Origin: a virus
Length of the DNA stretch: 20,161 nucleotides
IMG/VR virus record: IMGVR_UViG_3300046331_000316
Location: 1-20,161 of that record
Direction: 5' to 3' (one strand)
Shown: positions 368 through 11,623 of the stretch, piece by piece
How positions within the stretch are numbered: position 1 is the stretch's first letter
Layout: each line of letters opens with the position of its first letter
The notes under the pieces: generated by a model
The model's database searches: none
Told to the model about the DNA's origin: nothing
The model's input: the letters and a program-made list of their open reading frames with translations, nothing else
Position numbers and translations under genes: made by a program

Positions 368-848
368 ATGAAGAAAAAACACCTAATACTAGACCCATGC
401 TCGGGAAGCAGAATGTTCTGGTTCGACCGAAAAGATCCCCGAGTTATATTCGGGGATATACGCTCAGAGAGCCATATACTATGTGATGGAAGAGCGCTTG
501 ATATAAAGCCCGACAGAGTAATGGATTTCCGAAAACTTCCTTACAAAGATGCTACCTTTAATTTGGTGTCGTTCGACCCTCCCCATATACGCAATATGGG
601 GGGAGGGCGCTTGGATGGGTAAGAAGTACGGCATTCTCACCGAAAATTGGAAAGAAGATTTAGCTAAGGGATTTGAGGAATGTTTCAGAGTTCTTAAACC
701 GGGAGGTACGTTGGTTTTTAAATGGAACGAGACTCAGATAACCACAAAAGAAGTGCTGACCTGTACCCCCGAAAAGCCTCTGTTTGGACATATTTCAGGT
801 AAACGGTCTAACACCCACTGGATTTGCTTTTCAAAAGGAGAGGCATAA
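368..848 (+). pseudogene. SAM-dependent methyltransferase-like gene interrupted by a +1 frameshift at a G6 run
   Basis: Two frames together make one recognisable phage methyltransferase-like protein. The first part (ATG 368) reads LILDPCSGSRMFWFD, GDIRSESHILCDGR, VMDFRKLPYKDATFNLV and SFDPPH, where DPPH resembles the DPPY-type catalytic motif, then meets TAA at 620-622. The second part, in the +1 frame, reads WMGKKYGILTENWKEDL, GFEECFRVLKPGGTLVFKWNE, KPLFGHISGK and NTHWICF, and ends at 848. The frames join at the run of six G at 597-602. With five G the protein reads MGEGAWMGKKYG, as I would expect for the family. The gene could be dead, recoded, or a homopolymer sequencing error. GC is roughly 40-47 % in the lines I counted, lower than its neighbours, and it holds one of only two GATC sites in the window, so it may be a recent acquisition. 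Substrate unknown. The stop overlaps the polymerase start (TAATG). Confidence 0.75.
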
Positions 849-2770
849 TGCCACCTAAAATCCCCCGCCCCATAACTATAGACTTTGAGACTGAGAAAAT
901 CGAAGACCGACCCCGCTACCCGCCTAAGCCCGTGGGCGTGAGTATCAAGCTTCCCGGCCGCAAGTCTAAGTACTACGCATGGGGTCACCCCGTGAAGAAC
1001 AACTGCATCAAAGAAGACGCTATGCGACACCTTCGAACCGCGTGGGAAAGCACCTCCCCGATGCTGTTCCACAATGGTAAGTTTGACGTAGACGTCGCTC
1101 AGGAGCACATGGGTCTCATGGACGTCTACCTTGACCCGTTACGTGTACACGACACCCAATTCATTCTGTTCCTGCTAGACCCACACAGCTTCAATCTAGG
1201 GTTGAAACCCTGCGCTGAGAAGTTCTTAGGTATGCCCCCAGCCGAGCGCGACGCTGTGGCAGAGTGGCTAATGGAGCACCAGAAAGAGCTGAAGGCGGAA
1301 GGCCGCTTACCAGCCAATGTCCGCGTTACCACGGGTAACTTCGGAGCATGGATTAGCTTAGCTCCCGGAGACATTGTAGGGGCGTACGCGGCCGGAGACA
1401 CTGACCGAACCGAAGCCCTGTTCAACTGGGGATACCCTAAAGTGGTGGAGCTGGGGATGCTAGCGGCCTACGAGCGCGAATGCAAACTCATGCCAATTCT
1501 GCTGCGCAATGAGCGACAAGGTATGAAGGCCGACATTAGCGGTCTAGAGCGGGGGCTAACCGAATACGAAGCAGCCATGACAACCGTTGAAAAATGGCTG
1601 CGTAAAAAGCTGAAGTCACCTGACTTAGATTTTGAGAAAGACCGCGAGCTAGCGGCCGTACTAGACCGCGAAGGTGTCATAACCGAGTGGACTCTTACCG
1701 CTACAGGCCAGAAGTCTATGAACAAGAAAGTGCTCAAGCCTAGCCATTACAACGATGTCAAGGTGTTCAAGGCGCTGGGGTATCGCAATAAGCTGGCAAC
1801 CTGTCTGCAGACGTATTTCCGCCCGTGGCTGGAGACCGCTAGAGCTAGCGACGGACTCCTTTACGCGGGGTGGAACCAGACCCGCAACGACCGCGACGCT
1901 GGGGCTCGTACCGGGCGGTTAAGCAGCTCTCCAAACTTCATGGCCGTGGCTAAGGACTTTTCGGACAAGGGCGACGGATGGAGTCACCCGGACTTCATTA
2001 AGGACTTGGCTCATTTACCCCTAATGCGACAGTACCTGCTACCCGACAGCCCGAAGCACTGGTGGGGGCGTCGAGATTACAATCAGCAAGAGCTTCGTAT
2101 TCTAGGTCACTTCGAAGACGGCCGCATTATGCAAGCCTACCGCGACAACCCGCGCTTAGACATCCACACATTCGTGCAGGGCGCTATTAAGGAGCTGCTA
2201 GGCATAGACCTCCCGCGTACACCTATCAAGACGCTGAACTTCGGTTTGATTTACGGACAAGGTGTTGGCTCTATGGCTGAGAAAATTGGACGCTCCACTG
2301 ACGAAGTTGCTCAGTTCCGCAAGGCTCAGTTCAGCGCACTGCCCGGCCTGAAGGAGCTGGACAAAACCATCAAGCAACGCGGCCGCGCTGGTCAGCACGT
2401 CACCACATGGGGCGGCCGCGTGTACTATTGTGAAGACCCCAAGGTCATAAACGGTAGGCTCTGCACTTTTGAGTACAAGCTGCTGAACTACCTGATTCAA
2501 GGCAGCGCGGCCGACTGCACCAAAGAAGCTCTGATTCGTTACGACAGCATAGACCACAGCGACGCTCGGTTTGTGGTGACCGTACATGACGAGATAAACA
2601 TCAGCTCTCCAAAGGGCTGTTTCAAGCGCGAGATGCTCAAGCTGCGCGAATGTATGATGTCCGTTGAGTTCGACTTACCCATGCTGTCAGATGCTGAGTA
2701 CGGGGCTAATTGGGCGGACATGCAAGCGTTGAAAGAACCAGCTCCAGATTTCAGCAAGTGGTCAATCTAA
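848..2770 (+). CDS. Family A DNA polymerase with 3'-5' exonuclease domain
   Basis: Replicative phage polymerase of the Pol I type, about 640 aa. The N-terminal DEDDy-type exonuclease has motif I DFE at 12-14, HNGKFDVD at 75-82 and YAAGDTD around 180-186. The polymerase has motif A DYNQQELR from residue 410, motif B R457...K461...F465-GLIYG (the O helix), and motif C VHDE at 579-582. All catalytic residues I can identify are present, so it should be active. Phe at the O-helix position is the Pol I-like state. No 5'-3' nuclease domain is present. I place the start at 848 because AGGAGAGG at 836-843 lies just upstream and the ATG overlaps the previous stop; an upstream in-frame ATG at 824 lies inside the previous gene. 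It heads a block of nucleases and a helicase. Confidence 0.95.
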   Translation: MPPKIPRPITIDFETEKIEDRPRYPPKPVGVSIKLPGRKSKYYAWGHPVKNNCIKEDAMRHLRTAWESTSPMLFHNGKFDVDVAQEHMGLMDVYLDPLRVHDTQFILFLLDPHSFNLGLKPCAEKFLGMPPAERDAVAEWLMEHQKELKAEGRLPANVRVTTGNFGAWISLAPGDIVGAYAAGDTDRTEALFNWGYPKVVELGMLAAYERECKLMPILLRNERQGMKADISGLERGLTEYEAAMTTVEKWLRKKLKSPDLDFEKDRELAAVLDREGVITEWTLTATGQKSMNKKVLKPSHYNDVKVFKALGYRNKLATCLQTYFRPWLETARASDGLLYAGWNQTRNDRDAGARTGRLSSSPNFMAVAKDFSDKGDGWSHPDFIKDLAHLPLMRQYLLPDSPKHWWGRRDYNQQELRILGHFEDGRIMQAYRDNPRLDIHTFVQGAIKELLGIDLPRTPIKTLNFGLIYGQGVGSMAEKIGRSTDEVAQFRKAQFSALPGLKELDKTIKQRGRAGQHVTTWGGRVYYCEDPKVINGRLCTFEYKLLNYLIQGSAADCTKEALIRYDSIDHSDARFVVTVHDEINISSPKGCFKREMLKLRECMMSVEFDLPMLSDAEYGANWADMQALKEPAPDFSKWSI

Positions 2771-4123: not shown

Positions 4124-4714
4124 GTGAAAGAGGAATACTCTATACGCAAAGTCAACCGCGAGCAGTGTGTGTTTCTGCTGCGCACGTTTCACTACCTGAC
4201 TGCAGAGTCCAAAGGTTTCAAGTCTGGGTTTAACGTCGGATTGTTTCACAGAGACATGCTGGTGGGGGTGTGTATATTTACAGCCTTACCAGTTCCGGAG
4301 CTCAGCGTCAGTATGTTCGGGCTGGCTAGAGATGACCAGAGCGGACTATGGGAACTGTCCAGACTTGTACTAGACCCACTAGTGCAGCATACAGAACACA
4401 ACTTAGCCTCGTGGTTTGTAAGTCGCGCCTTGCGAAAACTGAAAAGTGACGAATATCTCAGAGCTGTGCTTTCGTACGCAGACACCCGATTCCACGCGGG
4501 GGTAGTGTACGCCGCTTCTAACTTCACCTACTGCGGACTGACAGCTCCTAAAGCCGACTGGTTCGTGGCCGGGGTTAAGTTGTCACGCGGGGTGTGCGCT
4601 GGAGTGGGTGAATGGAGACCCAGACCCCAGAAGCATAGGTTCGTGAAAATATTCGACAACAAACTGAATTTACGCTGGCAACCACAGGTCTGGTTTCCAG
4701 CACTCCCCGCATGA
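4124..4714 (+). CDS. Mom-like DNA-modification protein (GNAT-fold) candidate
   Basis: The 196-aa protein resembles the Mom-like family of phage GNAT-fold proteins. Landmarks are FNVGLFHRDMLVGVCIF at about 37-53, WELSRLVLDP at 76-85 with E77 and R80, and a conserved LSYAD block at 116-120 with D120. AGVVYAASNFTYCGLT follows at about 126-141, and the C-terminus has a KHRFVKIFD segment. Mu Mom modifies adenine N6 in DNA (methylcarbamoyl group) and protects phage DNA from restriction. Many family members are uncharacterised, so this role is inferred from family likeness only. The start is GTG, four bases after the exonuclease stop, and the end overlaps the next gene by ATGA. Its place among replication nucleases suggests it acts on newly made DNA, but a generic acyltransferase is possible. 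Confidence 0.65.
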   Translation: MKEEYSIRKVNREQCVFLLRTFHYLTAESKGFKSGFNVGLFHRDMLVGVCIFTALPVPELSVSMFGLARDDQSGLWELSRLVLDPLVQHTEHNLASWFVSRALRKLKSDEYLRAVLSYADTRFHAGVVYAASNFTYCGLTAPKADWFVAGVKLSRGVCAGVGEWRPRPQKHRFVKIFDNKLNLRWQPQVWFPALPA

Positions 4715-7734: not shown

Positions 7735-8514
7735 ATGAAGATATTTATCCCAACCTACGGACGCACTGACCGTCAGGTTACGTTCGATGGTCTGCCAAAA
7801 GCCTTACAGGCCAACGCCGTACTGGTCGTACAGCGCTCGGAGGCTAAGCTGTACGACGACAAATACCCGCTGCTGGTATGCACCCCCAGCGTCACATCCA
7901 TAGCTACTAAGCGTCAATGGATTGTCGACTATGCCCGCAAAGCTGCTCACCAGCACATAGTCATGCTGGACGACGACCTGCGATGGGCTGAGCGCCGCAC
8001 CGACGAACCCGACAAGTTTGCGGCCTCAGACGCTAAGAGCATCTCCCGTTTGTTCGCCACGCTTGCTAAGCAGTTAAAGATTAGCGCTCATGTGGGCGTA
8101 TCAGCCAGCGAAGCTGCGCACACTAACCCCGCCCCGCTGCGCTTCAGCACCCGCATGACTCGGGTTCTAGGTTACGATGTGGAAGTACTAGGGCGTGAGA
8201 AGATTCGTTTTGACCGCTTGCCAGTGCAGGAAGACTTTGACGTCACGCTCCAGCTGCTACGCAAGGGTTACACCAACACCGTGATAAATGGCTGGGTACA
8301 CAACCAAGACGGCTCCAACGCCCGTGGTGGGTGCAGCACCTTCCGCACCCCAGAGATGCAAGCTGAAACCAGCCGCAAGCTGGCCGAGCTGCATCACCCG
8401 TTTGTCAAAGTGGTGGAGAAAACTACGAAGACAGCTTGGGGCGGAGCTACTCGGGTAGACGTCGTGGTGCAGTGGAAGCAAGCGTTTCTGTCGCATTCTC
8501 GAGGTGCAAAGTGA
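7735..8514 (+). CDS. TET/JBP-associated glycosyltransferase-like protein (TAGT)
   Basis: 259-aa protein with a GT-A-like start, KIFIPTYGRTDRQVTFDGLP. An ATKRQWIVDYARK segment lies around residues 61-73, and an acidic triad at 79-81 (MLDDDLRW) sits where a metal/nucleotide-sugar binding motif is expected. VQEDFDVTLQLL (E166, D167) follows, then GGCSTFRTPEMQAETSRKLAELHHPFVK toward the end. This set matches my memory of the TAGT family, predicted to glycosylate oxidised pyrimidines in phage DNA. The usual partners, a TET oxygenase or a nucleotide hydroxymethylase, make the hydroxymethyl acceptor. No TET is in the window, but a TS/hydroxymethylase-family gene lies about 1 kb downstream. AGGAG precedes the ATG by seven bases. 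The end overlaps a GNAT-like gene by GTGA. A different small GT-A enzyme is possible. Confidence 0.75.
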   Translation: MKIFIPTYGRTDRQVTFDGLPKALQANAVLVVQRSEAKLYDDKYPLLVCTPSVTSIATKRQWIVDYARKAAHQHIVMLDDDLRWAERRTDEPDKFAASDAKSISRLFATLAKQLKISAHVGVSASEAAHTNPAPLRFSTRMTRVLGYDVEVLGREKIRFDRLPVQEDFDVTLQLLRKGYTNTVINGWVHNQDGSNARGGCSTFRTPEMQAETSRKLAELHHPFVKVVEKTTKTAWGGATRVDVVVQWKQAFLSHSRGAK

Positions 8515-8954
8515 AAGTCCAAGTAGCTGTGTTGGCGCATGAAGCCCAATGTAATCTGCTCGCTAGACAGCAAGTAAGCTCCATAGGCTTCGCAGACCCA
8601 TACCCTGAGGATGTAGAAGCCAGAAGAGAGGCATTTCCACGGCGTCAAGTTCTAGTGGTGGAGCTTCAGGGTGTATTGCAGGGGTTCGTATGGGCTGCAC
8701 CTGTACGGCGTGGGGCTGAGCGCCTGACTGTTATACGCTGTGTGGCTTCACGCTACAGACTGACCTCTTACATAATAGACGACGAAACTTCTGAAGCGCT
8801 AGTAAACGAAGTTGTCAACCGCTGCCCGTTTGGGCGTGTAGAGGTCACGTTGTCCGAAAGCAATTCCAGAGAACTAGCATTCTACGGCCGCATGGGGTTC
8901 TCCCACGAACGCGCTGAACGCGGCCGCGTTACACTCAGCAAATTCAAGGCATAA
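8511..8954 (+). CDS. GNAT-like acyltransferase
   Basis: 147-aa protein with the GNAT pattern. A helix/strand N-terminus ends in VLVVELQGVLQGFVWAAPV, a strand RLTVIRCVAS is followed by a helix region, and a late block VEVTLSESNSRELAFYGRMGFSHERAERG holds the typical N...AFYGRMGF end. The acetyl-CoA loop is weak: I do not see a clean RxxGxG/A motif, so cofactor use is uncertain. GTG at 8511 is preferred because GAGG precedes it by six bases and it overlaps the glycosyltransferase stop; the longer in-frame version starts inside that gene. Coupling to the glycosyltransferase suggests a joint role, perhaps acylating a modified base or sugar, but an unrelated target is equally possible. Confidence 0.65.
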   Translation: MKVQVAVLAHEAQCNLLARQQVSSIGFADPYPEDVEARREAFPRRQVLVVELQGVLQGFVWAAPVRRGAERLTVIRCVASRYRLTSYIIDDETSEALVNEVVNRCPFGRVEVTLSESNSRELAFYGRMGFSHERAERGRVTLSKFKA

Positions 8955-9015
8955 TTACCAGAGGGCGGAGTTGGTCGCCGCACTCTTTCTGTAACTGACC
9001 TTAATGGAGTAAACT

Positions 9016-9576
9016 ATGACAAACGCTAAAGTAGCTGGGGAGATGCTAGACCATCTCAAGCCAGAGAATAACCACTCTCGCAGCGAGGTGGAAAACACCC
9101 ATAAATGGTTCGTCGCCAGCGGACAGATGCCAGAACAGCCAGAGCCGAACGTCCGAGCGGCCGCGCTGTACATGGGTTTGCAGCTGGAAGAAATGGCTGA
9201 GAAACTGGGGGTTATAGGTATGGAGCGGCTGTCTAAAGCGCTGCACAGCCACGCAGATTTGTTCAAGTCTGGAGCCAACGACGATGCAGTACGCGAAGCT
9301 CTTACATTCGGTAAGGCTAAAGAGTTGCTGGACAGCGATATGGATTTGCTGTGGGTGACAATGGGTGCAGCCTACGCTCAAGGTGCTGACGTGACCGGGG
9401 CGTACGGCGCTGTGGGCGATGCCAATTGGGCTAAGTTCCCCAACGGCGTGGTAACTCTGGACGCCGTCACTGGCAAAGTGGTTAAGCCTGAAGGCTGGAC
9501 ACCACCTGACCTGACACCCTTCGTTCACCCTTCGTTCGTCGCTGACGAGAAAGTCGGTGTAAATGAGCAAGTCTAA
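9016..9576 (+). CDS. MazG/PRA-PH-like NTP pyrophosphohydrolase
   Basis: 186-aa all-alpha NTP pyrophosphatase candidate. LQLEEMAEKLGV at about 55-66 supplies the EExxE-type metal site. DSDMDLLWVTMGAAYAQGADV around 111-131 supplies the later acidic residues. The NWAKF and GKVVKPEGWTPPDL segments near the end are typical of phage phosphoribosyl-ATP pyrophosphohydrolase-like proteins. Such enzymes hydrolyse NTPs or dNTPs to monophosphates. Overlapping the TS-family gene by 14 bases, it may remove an unmodified dNTP or supply a dNMP substrate, but which nucleotide cannot be read from sequence. TGGAG lies six bases before the ATG, after a 61-base gap with only a weak hairpin. Confidence 0.8.
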   Translation: MTNAKVAGEMLDHLKPENNHSRSEVENTHKWFVASGQMPEQPEPNVRAAALYMGLQLEEMAEKLGVIGMERLSKALHSHADLFKSGANDDAVREALTFGKAKELLDSDMDLLWVTMGAAYAQGADVTGAYGAVGDANWAKFPNGVVTLDAVTGKVVKPEGWTPPDLTPFVHPSFVADEKVGVNEQV

Positions 9577-10627
9577 AATCATCACTGCTGGCAGCGTGAA
9601 CATCGCGCTGTACGAAGGCCTCTGGCACTTGAAGGAGCACGGAATCTCCAACCCTAGCCGTAACGGTTCGGTAATCCAGGCTCCCGGTCCGGTGCTGACT
9701 GAGTACACCAAGCCCGACCGCCGTGTTATGTTTAGTCCGCTGCGCGATGCTAATCCATTCTTCCACTTGTACGAAGCTGTGTGGATGCTGGCTGGTGCTA
9801 ATGACGTCGCCAGCGTGGCTAAGTACGCTAAGCAGATGGAAGCGTTCAGCGACAACGGAACCTCGCTGTGGGGGGCGTACGGCTGGCGCTGGCGTAAATT
9901 CTTCGGCTTTGACCAGCTTACAGCTATCATTGAGACGCTGCGCAAAGACCCGAAGAACCGCCGTGCAGTGCTAACCATGTGGGCTCCCGAAGGCGACTTA
10001 ACGGGGTTAGTGGTTGACGACGAAGAGTTAGGTGGACTGACAGCTAAGGATGTGCCCTGCAATACGCATGTGTACTTTGACGCCACGCAAGGTAAGCTGG
10101 AGATGACAGTCTGCAACCGAAGCAACGACGCTATCTGGGGCGCTTACGGGGCTAACATGGTTCACATGAGTGTGCTGCACGAGTTCGTAGCTAGCGCCAT
10201 TGGGCTGCCGATGGGAAGCTATTACCAGCTTAGCAACAACTTCCACATTTACACCGGCCGCGAAGATGTTGACCGTCTGTTTGAAGTTGGAAGCGAAGGC
10301 ACTGCGCTTGTGAAGTACGAGTCTGTAGACCTGTACGCTCAGGGTGCAGTGAAGCCTTACCCCATGATGCTGTTCGCAGACGACTGGATTGACTGGCTGG
10401 GTGGTGCCGAAAAGCTAGCTGCTAACCCTACTGGGGACTTCACAGGCTTGAATGCTGTACACCACTGGTTCACAGCTGTGTTCCAGCCGCTGATGCGCAG
10501 CCACGCTGCGTACAAAGCCGGTGACATGAAGGGGGCGTTGGAAATGGCCGAAATCTGCGCAGCTGAGGACTGGAGCCTCGCGGCCGTGCAGTGGCTCCAG
10601 CGCCGTGCCAAGAAAGCGTCCGTATGA
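9563..10627 (+). CDS. Thymidylate synthase / pyrimidine hydroxymethylase-family enzyme
   Basis: 354-aa enzyme of the TS superfamily, which transfers a one-carbon unit from methylenetetrahydrofolate to C5 of a pyrimidine nucleotide. The RRAVLTMW arginine block is at about 133-140, the catalytic cysteine is C166 (VPCNTH), and NRSNDAIWGAYGANMVHM follows with N198. Asn at this place, equivalent to E. coli TS N177, usually means a uracil nucleotide substrate; T4 dCMP hydroxymethylase has Asp. PCNT and RSND also occur in that hydroxymethylase group, so I cannot tell dTMP synthase from dUMP hydroxymethylase. The protein is longer than the E. coli enzyme (264 aa), with an extra C-terminal helical region. 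It overlaps the MazG-like gene by 14 bases and the HD hydrolase by ATGA. Confidence 0.88.
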   Translation: MSKSKIITAGSVNIALYEGLWHLKEHGISNPSRNGSVIQAPGPVLTEYTKPDRRVMFSPLRDANPFFHLYEAVWMLAGANDVASVAKYAKQMEAFSDNGTSLWGAYGWRWRKFFGFDQLTAIIETLRKDPKNRRAVLTMWAPEGDLTGLVVDDEELGGLTAKDVPCNTHVYFDATQGKLEMTVCNRSNDAIWGAYGANMVHMSVLHEFVASAIGLPMGSYYQLSNNFHIYTGREDVDRLFEVGSEGTALVKYESVDLYAQGAVKPYPMMLFADDWIDWLGGAEKLAANPTGDFTGLNAVHHWFTAVFQPLMRSHAAYKAGDMKGALEMAEICAAEDWSLAAVQWLQRRAKKASV

Positions 10628-11154
10628 TTAACGCTTTGCTACTTTCTCAGCTGGACATGGTGGGTCGCAGCGGCCGCGTGAAGCGCTATCACTCTCAACC
10701 TGCGGTTCACACCCAGACTGTGGGGGAGCACACCTACGGGGTCATGTGGCTGGTTCTGTTGCTCACCCGCTATGCTAGCCGTGACCTCATGGTGGCCGCG
10801 CTTATGCACGACGCACCTGAGTACTATACTGGCGATGTACCAGCCCCCACTAAGCGCCTAGCAGGTATGAAGGCCGCGTTTGACAACATTGAGGATAGTG
10901 TATTCAAGCGCTTAGAGCTACAGTACCCCCAGTTGTCCGAGGCTGAGGCTCGCACCCTCAAAATGGCTGACGTGCTAGAGGGTGCTCTGTTCTGCGCTTG
11001 GGAGCTCAACCGGGGCAACCGTGAGATTCACGAATGCCTTTACAACTACATCAGCTACGCTGATTCATTGGCTCCTGACGGAGCTGCTCTGGAAATTCTA
11101 AACTACGTGAAAGGTCAGTATGCACAAGTCTTCGGTAAATACATCGGCAAATAG
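10624..11154 (+). CDS. YfbR-like HD-domain nucleotidase
   Basis: 176-aa HD-family phosphohydrolase similar to the YfbR 5'-nucleotidases that dephosphorylate deoxynucleoside monophosphates. The visible metal site is E35-H36 (VGEH), H62-D63 (LMHDAPEYYTGD) and D116 (KMADVLEG), and R18 also matches the YfbR pattern. All the residues needed for catalysis appear present. ATG overlaps the TS-family stop (ATGA), so it is translated with that gene and probably tunes the same nucleotide pool. An upstream in-frame ATG at 10591 lies inside the TS-family gene and is not preferred. Confidence 0.88.
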   Translation: MINALLLSQLDMVGRSGRVKRYHSQPAVHTQTVGEHTYGVMWLVLLLTRYASRDLMVAALMHDAPEYYTGDVPAPTKRLAGMKAAFDNIEDSVFKRLELQYPQLSEAEARTLKMADVLEGALFCAWELNRGNREIHECLYNYISYADSLAPDGAALEILNYVKGQYAQVFGKYIGK

Positions 11155-11623
11155 CCGTCAGGTGGGTGGAGGTCACTACAGTCAAGGTGCAGCTATGCAG
11201 CACTGGGACTATGCGGCAGCTAACCAGATGGGGTACTTTGAAGGTCAAATCAGCAAGTACGTTACACGCTGGAAGGTGAAGCACCCCACGCTGGAGGGTA
11301 AGCTGATTGATTTAGGTAAGGCTGAGCACTTCGCGGCTAAGCTGTGGGAGCTGGCTCAAGAGGGTAAAGCCAGCCCGGTACAAACGCACACCGCGAACCT
11401 GACCGAAGAACCTACGGGCGTAAACGTAGTTGATTACTGTATGGGTCACAACCTCACCTTGCGCGAAGTAGGGGTTCTGGGGGCGCTCCAGCAGTGGGCT
11501 GACACCGGGAACATGAAAGCGCTGGCTAAGTGTCACGCTTTCATTCAAGAGCTCGTGGCTTGCGCTCCGGATTTGCTGTCAGAAGGAGCAGAACCGACCT
11601 CAGGGTACGTCAATCAGGGTTAA
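11120..11623 (+). CDS. DUF3310-containing protein
   Basis: 167-aa protein with a DUF3310-type helical domain around 15-77. It has QVGGGHYSQ at the start, QHWDYAAANQMGYFEGQISKYVTRW in the middle, and DLGKAEHFAAKLWEL at the end. These short domains are common in phages next to nucleotide-metabolism genes; their activity is unknown to me. A second helical segment with LREVGVLGALQQWADTGNM fills the C-terminal half. It overlaps the HD hydrolase by 35 bases, with AAGG five bases before the ATG. It is the last gene of the plus-strand block and is followed by two hairpins. Confidence 0.85.
   Translation: MHKSSVNTSANSRQVGGGHYSQGAAMQHWDYAAANQMGYFEGQISKYVTRWKVKHPTLEGKLIDLGKAEHFAAKLWELAQEGKASPVQTHTANLTEEPTGVNVVDYCMGHNLTLREVGVLGALQQWADTGNMKALAKCHAFIQELVACAPDLLSEGAEPTSGYVNQG

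Follow-up and report, generated by a model that had tools for sequence, protein, structure and literature searches.

Two kinds of phage DNA modification have so far been described separately: the 5-hydroxymethyldeoxyuridine (5-hmdU) pathways of phages M6, ViI and phiW-14, and the TAGT glycosyltransferases of T6 and the TET-dependent phages. The DNA of M6 carries a base derived from 5-hmdU, which is a common intermediate of such pathways (PMC6449724). Here, we describe a gene cassette of the IMG/VR record IMGVR_UViG_3300046331_000316, a 20,161-base fragment of a phage genome that was analysed as a whole (the window). No near match at the DNA level was found among 50,697 phage records. The cassette combines a TAGT gene with a gene of the thymidylate synthase (TS) family. 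Judged from the sequence, it is probably a thymine-glycosylation cassette, in which deoxyuridine monophosphate (dUMP) would be converted to 5-hydroxymethyl-dUMP (5-hmdUMP), 5-hmdU would replace T, and the TAGT would glycosylate 5-hydroxymethyluracil (5-hmU) in the DNA.

Among the closest described systems are those of M6 and its relatives (5-NedU; Yuavirus). M6 encodes a TS homologue of 41% identity, followed in the same order by an HD gene and a DUF3310 gene. The two differ in the decorating enzymes: M6 lacks a TAGT but encodes a 5-hmdU-DNA kinase, the 5-hmdU-DNA-kinase helical-domain protein HMUDK_hel, an amino-acid:DNA transferase (ADDT), a radical SAM enzyme and a PLP enzyme, none of which occurs in the 20 kb of the TAGT-bearing window.

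A predicted dUMP hydroxymethylase and its TAGT neighbour

Six genes on the plus strand of the window are arranged almost without gaps. Five of them overlap a neighbour, and the sole gap lies between the GNAT and the MazG-like gene. These genes and the phage polymerase are as follows:

7735-8514, plus strand: TAGT glycosyltransferase (PF20691, phrog_842, GT-A-like model); predicted acceptor 5-hmU in DNA
8511-8954, plus strand: probable GNAT-fold acyltransferase, with a GTG start overlapping the TAGT stop (phrog_1249, E 0.001; model)
9016-9576, plus strand: MazG-like nucleotide pyrophosphohydrolase (phrog_671, E 2e-20); predicted to remove dTTP and/or dUTP
9563-10627, plus strand: TS-superfamily enzyme, predicted dUMP 5-hydroxymethylase (phrog_5131, E 1e-109; residue signature)
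10624-11154, plus strand: YfbR-like HD 5'-deoxynucleotidase (PF12917, E 2.8e-12); putative role in removing dTMP or dUMP as competitors
11120-11623, plus strand: DUF3310/T7-gp1.7-like protein (phrog_5839, E 1.6e-23); conjectural 5-hmdUMP kinase
824-2770, plus strand: PolA-family DNA polymerase (open reading frame, homology to the polymerases of relatives); would incorporate 5-hmdUTP

The first five genes had been proposed in an initial annotation of the window, and all were recovered at the same positions on the plus strand. For the HD gene, the GTG start at 10591 was replaced by a better one, an ATG that lies at 10624 and overlaps the TS stop. The cassette, delimited in that annotation at 7735-11154, also extends further, up to the DUF3310 gene.

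The nearest named phage homologues of the TS-family enzyme are found in the Rabinowitzvirinae, with 41-45% identity (Stenotrophomonas phage Bhz59, Bordetella phage CN1 and Pseudomonas phages PaMx11, Ab18 and M6). Its residues were compared in an alignment that includes SPO1 gp29 (annotated as a dUMP hydroxymethylase), T4 gp42 (a dCMP hydroxymethylase) and E. coli ThyA. The core residues of the TS family are present, namely the catalytic C166, R186-S187 of the phosphate site and D189. Three residues before Cys166, the enzyme has D163 where ThyA has a Leu; an Asp at this position (Cys-3) has been proposed as a signature of hydroxymethylation on the basis of the T4 enzyme (PMC6400193). At E. coli position 177, where dCMP-specific enzymes have an Asp, it has N198, and Asn177 is the residue that decides between dUMP and dCMP as a substrate (PMC8670742). 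N167, which follows Cys166, and H228/Y230 are the same in SPO1 gp29 and in M6. All TAGT-associated and M6-type TS homologues in the alignment are identical at these signature sites, and the Asp-x-x-Cys-Asn motif is present in all 89 TS loci examined. The prediction of a dUMP hydroxymethylase is thus well supported by the Asp at Cys-3, the dUMP-type Asn and the SPO1-like Asn that follows the Cys. On the basis of the residues, two other functions were rejected: that of a thymidylate synthase because of the Asp, instead of Leu, at Cys-3, and that of a dCMP hydroxymethylase because of the Asn, instead of Asp, at the specificity position.

The same residues bear on a possible cytosine cassette, in which the TS-family enzyme would be a dCMP hydroxymethylase and the TAGT would glycosylate 5-hydroxymethylcytosine. 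This would follow the logic of T4 and T6, and the TAGTs of T6 and of TET-type phages do act on cytosine (PMC13216743, PMC13390438). Such a cassette is nevertheless extremely unlikely, given the Asn at the base-specificity position (following the rule in PMC8670742), the Asn after the Cys as in the SPO1 dUMP hydroxymethylase, the origin of the closest TS homologues in 5-hmdU phages, and the exchange of the TAGT with the 5-hmdU-DNA kinase described below.

The product of 7735-8514 is a member of the TAGT family, whose predicted activity here is the glycosylation of a hydroxymethyl base in DNA. It matches the full length of PF20691 (profile positions 1-205 of 205) with 86.4 bits, at a curated cut-off of 27.5 (E 3.4e-24), and phrog_842, a T6-type glucosyltransferase, with an E of 2.6e-46. 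D79-D80-D81 and G198-G199 are invariant across 30 relatives. A search of solved structures by sequence gave no meaningful match. The AlphaFold model (pLDDT 92.8) is GT-A-like and resembles TarP-UDP-GlcNAc and other UDP-sugar transferases with modest TM-scores. Besides this fold, the protein has the acidic residues of a metal-binding motif (D79-D81). The TAGT assignment of the initial annotation was therefore borne out, both by a profile score far above the cut-off and by the GT-A-like model, and the profile points to TAGT rather than to a lipid- or protein-sugar family.

The gene order TAGT-TS-HD-DUF3310 is repeated in strongly diverged phages. In addition, TAGT and TS lie on the same strand within 5 kb in 41 of the 41 loci in which both are found nearby, and about half of these pairs touch or overlap. 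Together, these observations indicate a grouping beyond chance. It could still be argued that the DNA is unmodified, or contains merely 5-hmU, and that the substrate of the TAGT is a protein, a lipid or a wall polymer of the host or the phage, its adjacency to the TS gene being a matter of operon convenience. TarP, the best PDB match of the model, is indeed a wall-teichoic-acid glycosyltransferase, though the similarity is low (TM-score 0.47, 10% identity). The strong TAGT profile match, the consistent placement on the TS strand and the mutual exclusion of the TAGT and a DNA kinase make a target other than DNA very unlikely.

Exchange of the TAGT with the 5-hmdU-DNA kinase

Relatives were gathered by scanning viral contigs with the TS alignment, which yielded 80 loci; as the sample was made through the TS, it covers TAGTs that have a TS partner. 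Locus L030 is syntenic with most of the window, with identities of 76% for the polymerase, 74% for the SNF2 helicase, 56% for MazG, 55% for TS, 57% for HD and 45-66% for the tail genes. Between the same flanking genes that enclose the TAGT and the GNAT in the window, L030 encodes an ADDT (PF18724), an FAD oxidoreductase, a homologue of the 5-hmdU-DNA kinase (scoring just under the PF18748 cut-off), a diverged GNAT and HMUDK_hel (PF18723). As the window and L030 share their flanks and differ at this slot, the TAGT occupies the position of enzymes acting on 5-hmU in DNA. In L027, a close relative, the TAGT is located immediately before MazG-TS-HD-DUF3310. The replacement of the kinase by the TAGT in this slot is stronger evidence for a 5-hmU route than the grouping of genes considered in the initial annotation.

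The two enzymes exclude each other throughout the sample. Using our own profiles, 42 of the 89 TS loci carry a TAGT, 32 a homologue of the M6-type 5-hmdU-DNA kinase, 15 neither and none both (Fisher p 6e-13). The curated Pfam profiles gave a TAGT in 25, the kinase in 16, neither in nine and both in none of 50 whole records (p 8e-7), so PF18748 was found in none of the 25 TAGT-bearing records. ADDT, the transferase downstream of the kinase, is present in 13 of these 50 records, never beside a TAGT. On the TS tree, TAGT and kinase must have replaced one another about 11 times, with four of these exchanges independent on well-supported branches, so that this exclusion arose repeatedly. In the window itself, an incomplete genome, nothing matched the M6-type kinase model and the slot contains no ADDT gene; the kinase (PF18748) and ADDT (PF18724) that characterize amino-acid thymidine hypermodification of the M6/ViI/phiW-14 type are thus absent from these 20 kb. 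Since the window is a fragment, absence from it is in itself weak evidence.

HMUDK_hel is retained in 37 of the 42 TAGT loci, which suggests that this protein, though named for the kinase, serves 5-hmU DNA in general.

In some loci with neither enzyme, the slot holds GT-B-like or unannotated proteins, SPASM radical-SAM enzymes or an FkbM methyltransferase (L032:4281-5429, L033:6692-9121, L055:7952-9987 and L096:970-3304). These are possible further decorations of 5-hmU. L014 (442-3984) has two TAGTs on either side of the TS gene, and the open reading frame between them resembles a SPASM-type radical-SAM protein; this arrangement is a candidate for a disaccharide or a C-linked modification. Three TAGT genes are found upstream of HMUDK_hel and TS on the 231-kb contig L062 (3335-8142).

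Several TAGTs in one locus could be sequential transferases. Two adjacent TAGTs also lie next to the TS gene of Brevibacterium phage LuckyBarnes, and the best known TAGT, that of T6, puts a second glucose on an already glucosylated base (PMC13216743). The 5-hmdU route might then be real, while the TAGT adds a second sugar, acts on another group or glycosylates the nucleotide instead of the DNA. This is unlikely, as no enzyme for a first sugar was found in the TAGT records and a single TAGT per record is the rule; moreover, the TAGT exchanges with a kinase acting on 5-hmU already present in DNA (PMC6449724). In 28 records, mostly TAGT-bearing, no alpha-glucosyltransferase (AGT) or beta-glucosyltransferase (BGT) was found, and the T4 control scored; the TAGT is therefore probably the first transferase.

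A dioxygenase as the source of the hydroxymethyl group was rejected by a profile search with working controls. TET/JBP (PF12851) was found neither in the window nor in any of the 50 long related records, and the controls, phage Nigel and the contigs L011 and L012, were positive. The latter two, both short, encode a TAGT and score strongly for a TET/JBP domain (E about 5e-30); they represent a TET-type TAGT system. In Mycobacterium phage Nigel (L105, NC_011044), the gene at 776-1744, annotated as a 'queuine tRNA-ribosyltransferase', matches Tet_JBP with an E of 4e-8, below the cut-off, and this annotation may be wrong. The complete circular 40-kb genome of the metagenomic phage MW202897 encodes a TAGT, a 'pyrimidine hmase', an HD and a DUF3310 protein, but lacks TET, the kinase, AGT and BGT. 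The route put forward in the initial annotation, in which a hydroxymethylase working on nucleotides supplies the TAGT and no TET enzyme is involved, is supported by this gene content and by the Asp at Cys-3 and the dUMP-type Asn. The acceptor had been described there in generic terms as a hydroxymethyl-pyrimidine; the hydroxymethyl base stands, and it is very probably 5-hydroxymethyluracil.

Some points weigh against a glycosylated 5-hmU. The pathway of the window phage is a prediction from its genes, and as a 20-kb fragment, the window may lack further modification genes that lie outside it. The characterised TAGTs act on cytosine, as in the glucosyl-hydroxymethylcytosine of T6 (PMC13216743). 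The loci are related, which makes the Fisher p-values too optimistic, and no more than the four exchanges mentioned are independent on well-supported branches. Finally, the window, its near-copy L007, L027, L031 and MW202897 are without HMUDK_hel; either this protein is dispensable, or the TAGTs of these loci work differently.

Proposed pathway and accessory genes

In the first and most strongly indicated step of the proposed pathway, the TS-family enzyme would convert dUMP to 5-hmdUMP. A kinase, possibly the DUF3310 protein together with host enzymes, would then provide 5-hmdUTP, and dTTP, dUTP and dTMP would be depleted by the MazG-like and HD enzymes; a comparable dTTPase is on record for phage phiW-14 (PMC5977210). 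The PolA phage polymerase would insert 5-hmdU instead of T. As the gene replacement suggests, the TAGT would finally move a sugar from a nucleotide-sugar to 5-hmU in DNA, at its hydroxymethyl group, and take over at this acceptor the part played by the 5-hmdU-DNA kinase in related phages. The expected product is glycosyl-5-hydroxymethyluracil, chemically base J or a base J analogue, and the GNAT is a candidate for tailoring it.

The sequence match of the GNAT is weak, with Pfam scores below the cut-off. Its AlphaFold model, built on an alignment of two rows, is modest (pLDDT 65) and matches GNAT structures with a best E of 7e-7; to judge from its fold, the protein is probably a genuine GNAT. 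L030, which bears the kinase and no TAGT, has a diverged homologue (25% identity) at the corresponding position. This argues against a dedicated role in sugar acylation and leaves the acylation suggested in the initial annotation unsupported.

The MazG-like protein matches its phrog profile but no Pfam family; the homologue in L027 also matches phrog_12019 ('MazG-like'). Homologues are found immediately upstream of TS in L026, L027, L029 and L030. M6 gp56 (Nmad5) was rejected as a homologue. The HD gene follows TS also in M6, CN1, L013, L015 and L030, and putative roles of both proteins in the nucleotide pool are plausible. The DUF3310 gene comes next after HD in most relatives, and also in M6. 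Its product also matches phrog_236 ('nucleotide kinase', E 3.9e-8), and because the DUF3310 domain corresponds to the C-terminal part of T7 gp1.7, we guess that it might act as a 5-hmdUMP kinase. The PolA polymerase is homologous to the polymerase adjoining TS in M6, CN1 and Bhz59, and to that of most TS relatives.

Outside the cassette, the window encodes a Mom-like DNA (adenine) modification protein at 4124-4714 on the plus strand (PF25680, E 1.2e-19, above the cut-off; phrog_1384, E 5e-27). The model of this protein has no match in any related locus, including the syntenic L030, and the window phage may thus have two separate DNA modifications.

Comparison with known systems

On balance, we favour the broader view that the window represents a widespread and so far undescribed class of phages in which T is replaced by directly glycosylated 5-hmU, a prokaryotic base J analogue. 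In this class, interchangeable decorating enzymes (5-hmdU-DNA kinase, TAGT, GT-B-like or radical-SAM proteins) would act on the product of a conserved hmdU-making block, and many of them would have HMUDK_hel as a common partner on 5-hmU DNA. Part of the orphan TAGTs would thereby gain a specific and directly testable substrate, 5-hmU in DNA, and the decoration of 5-hmU in phages appears to be modular. If true, bacterial viruses would be a source of base J-like DNA and of the enzymes to make it, and such DNA would form a new target class for modification-dependent defence.

In the cytosine glucosylation of T4 and T6, too, the base is hydroxymethylated in the nucleotide and glycosylated once it is part of DNA, and T6 also has an enzyme of the TAGT family. 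The scheme proposed here differs in that the hydroxymethylase of the window is of the uracil type, not the cytosine type, and that no alpha- or beta-glucosyltransferase was found. TAGT-type genes beside a TS or pyrimidine hydroxymethylase gene have already been deposited, as annotation only, for LuckyBarnes and MW202897, and no description of their modification was found.

In the TET/JBP-dependent phage TAGT systems, reportedly the subject of Iyer et al. 2013 and Pyle et al. 2024, the hydroxymethyl group is said to be made in the DNA by a dioxygenase. The TAGT family is shared with these systems, but no dioxygenase was found here, unlike in the TET-type L011 and L012. JGT, the glycosyltransferase of the kinetoplastid base J pathway (JBP1/2 plus JGT), is a reported relative of the TAGTs. 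The predicted product, a sugar on 5-hydroxymethyluracil in DNA, is of the same type as base J. The kinetoplastid modification is eukaryotic, affects about 1% of T and proceeds through the oxidation of T in DNA (PMC6449724), whereas 5-hmdU would be incorporated here. A passage in PMC4111573 attributes to Iyer and Aravind the idea that TAGTs possibly glycosylate 5-hmU produced by JBP-like enzymes. Bacillus phage SP-15, with its glucosylated dihydroxypentyluracil, likewise has a sugar-bearing replacement of thymine and genes for a predicted hydroxymethyl-dUMP synthase and for glycosyltransferases, but its sugar is carried by the dihydroxypentyl side chain and its gene cluster is a different one (PMC5977210).

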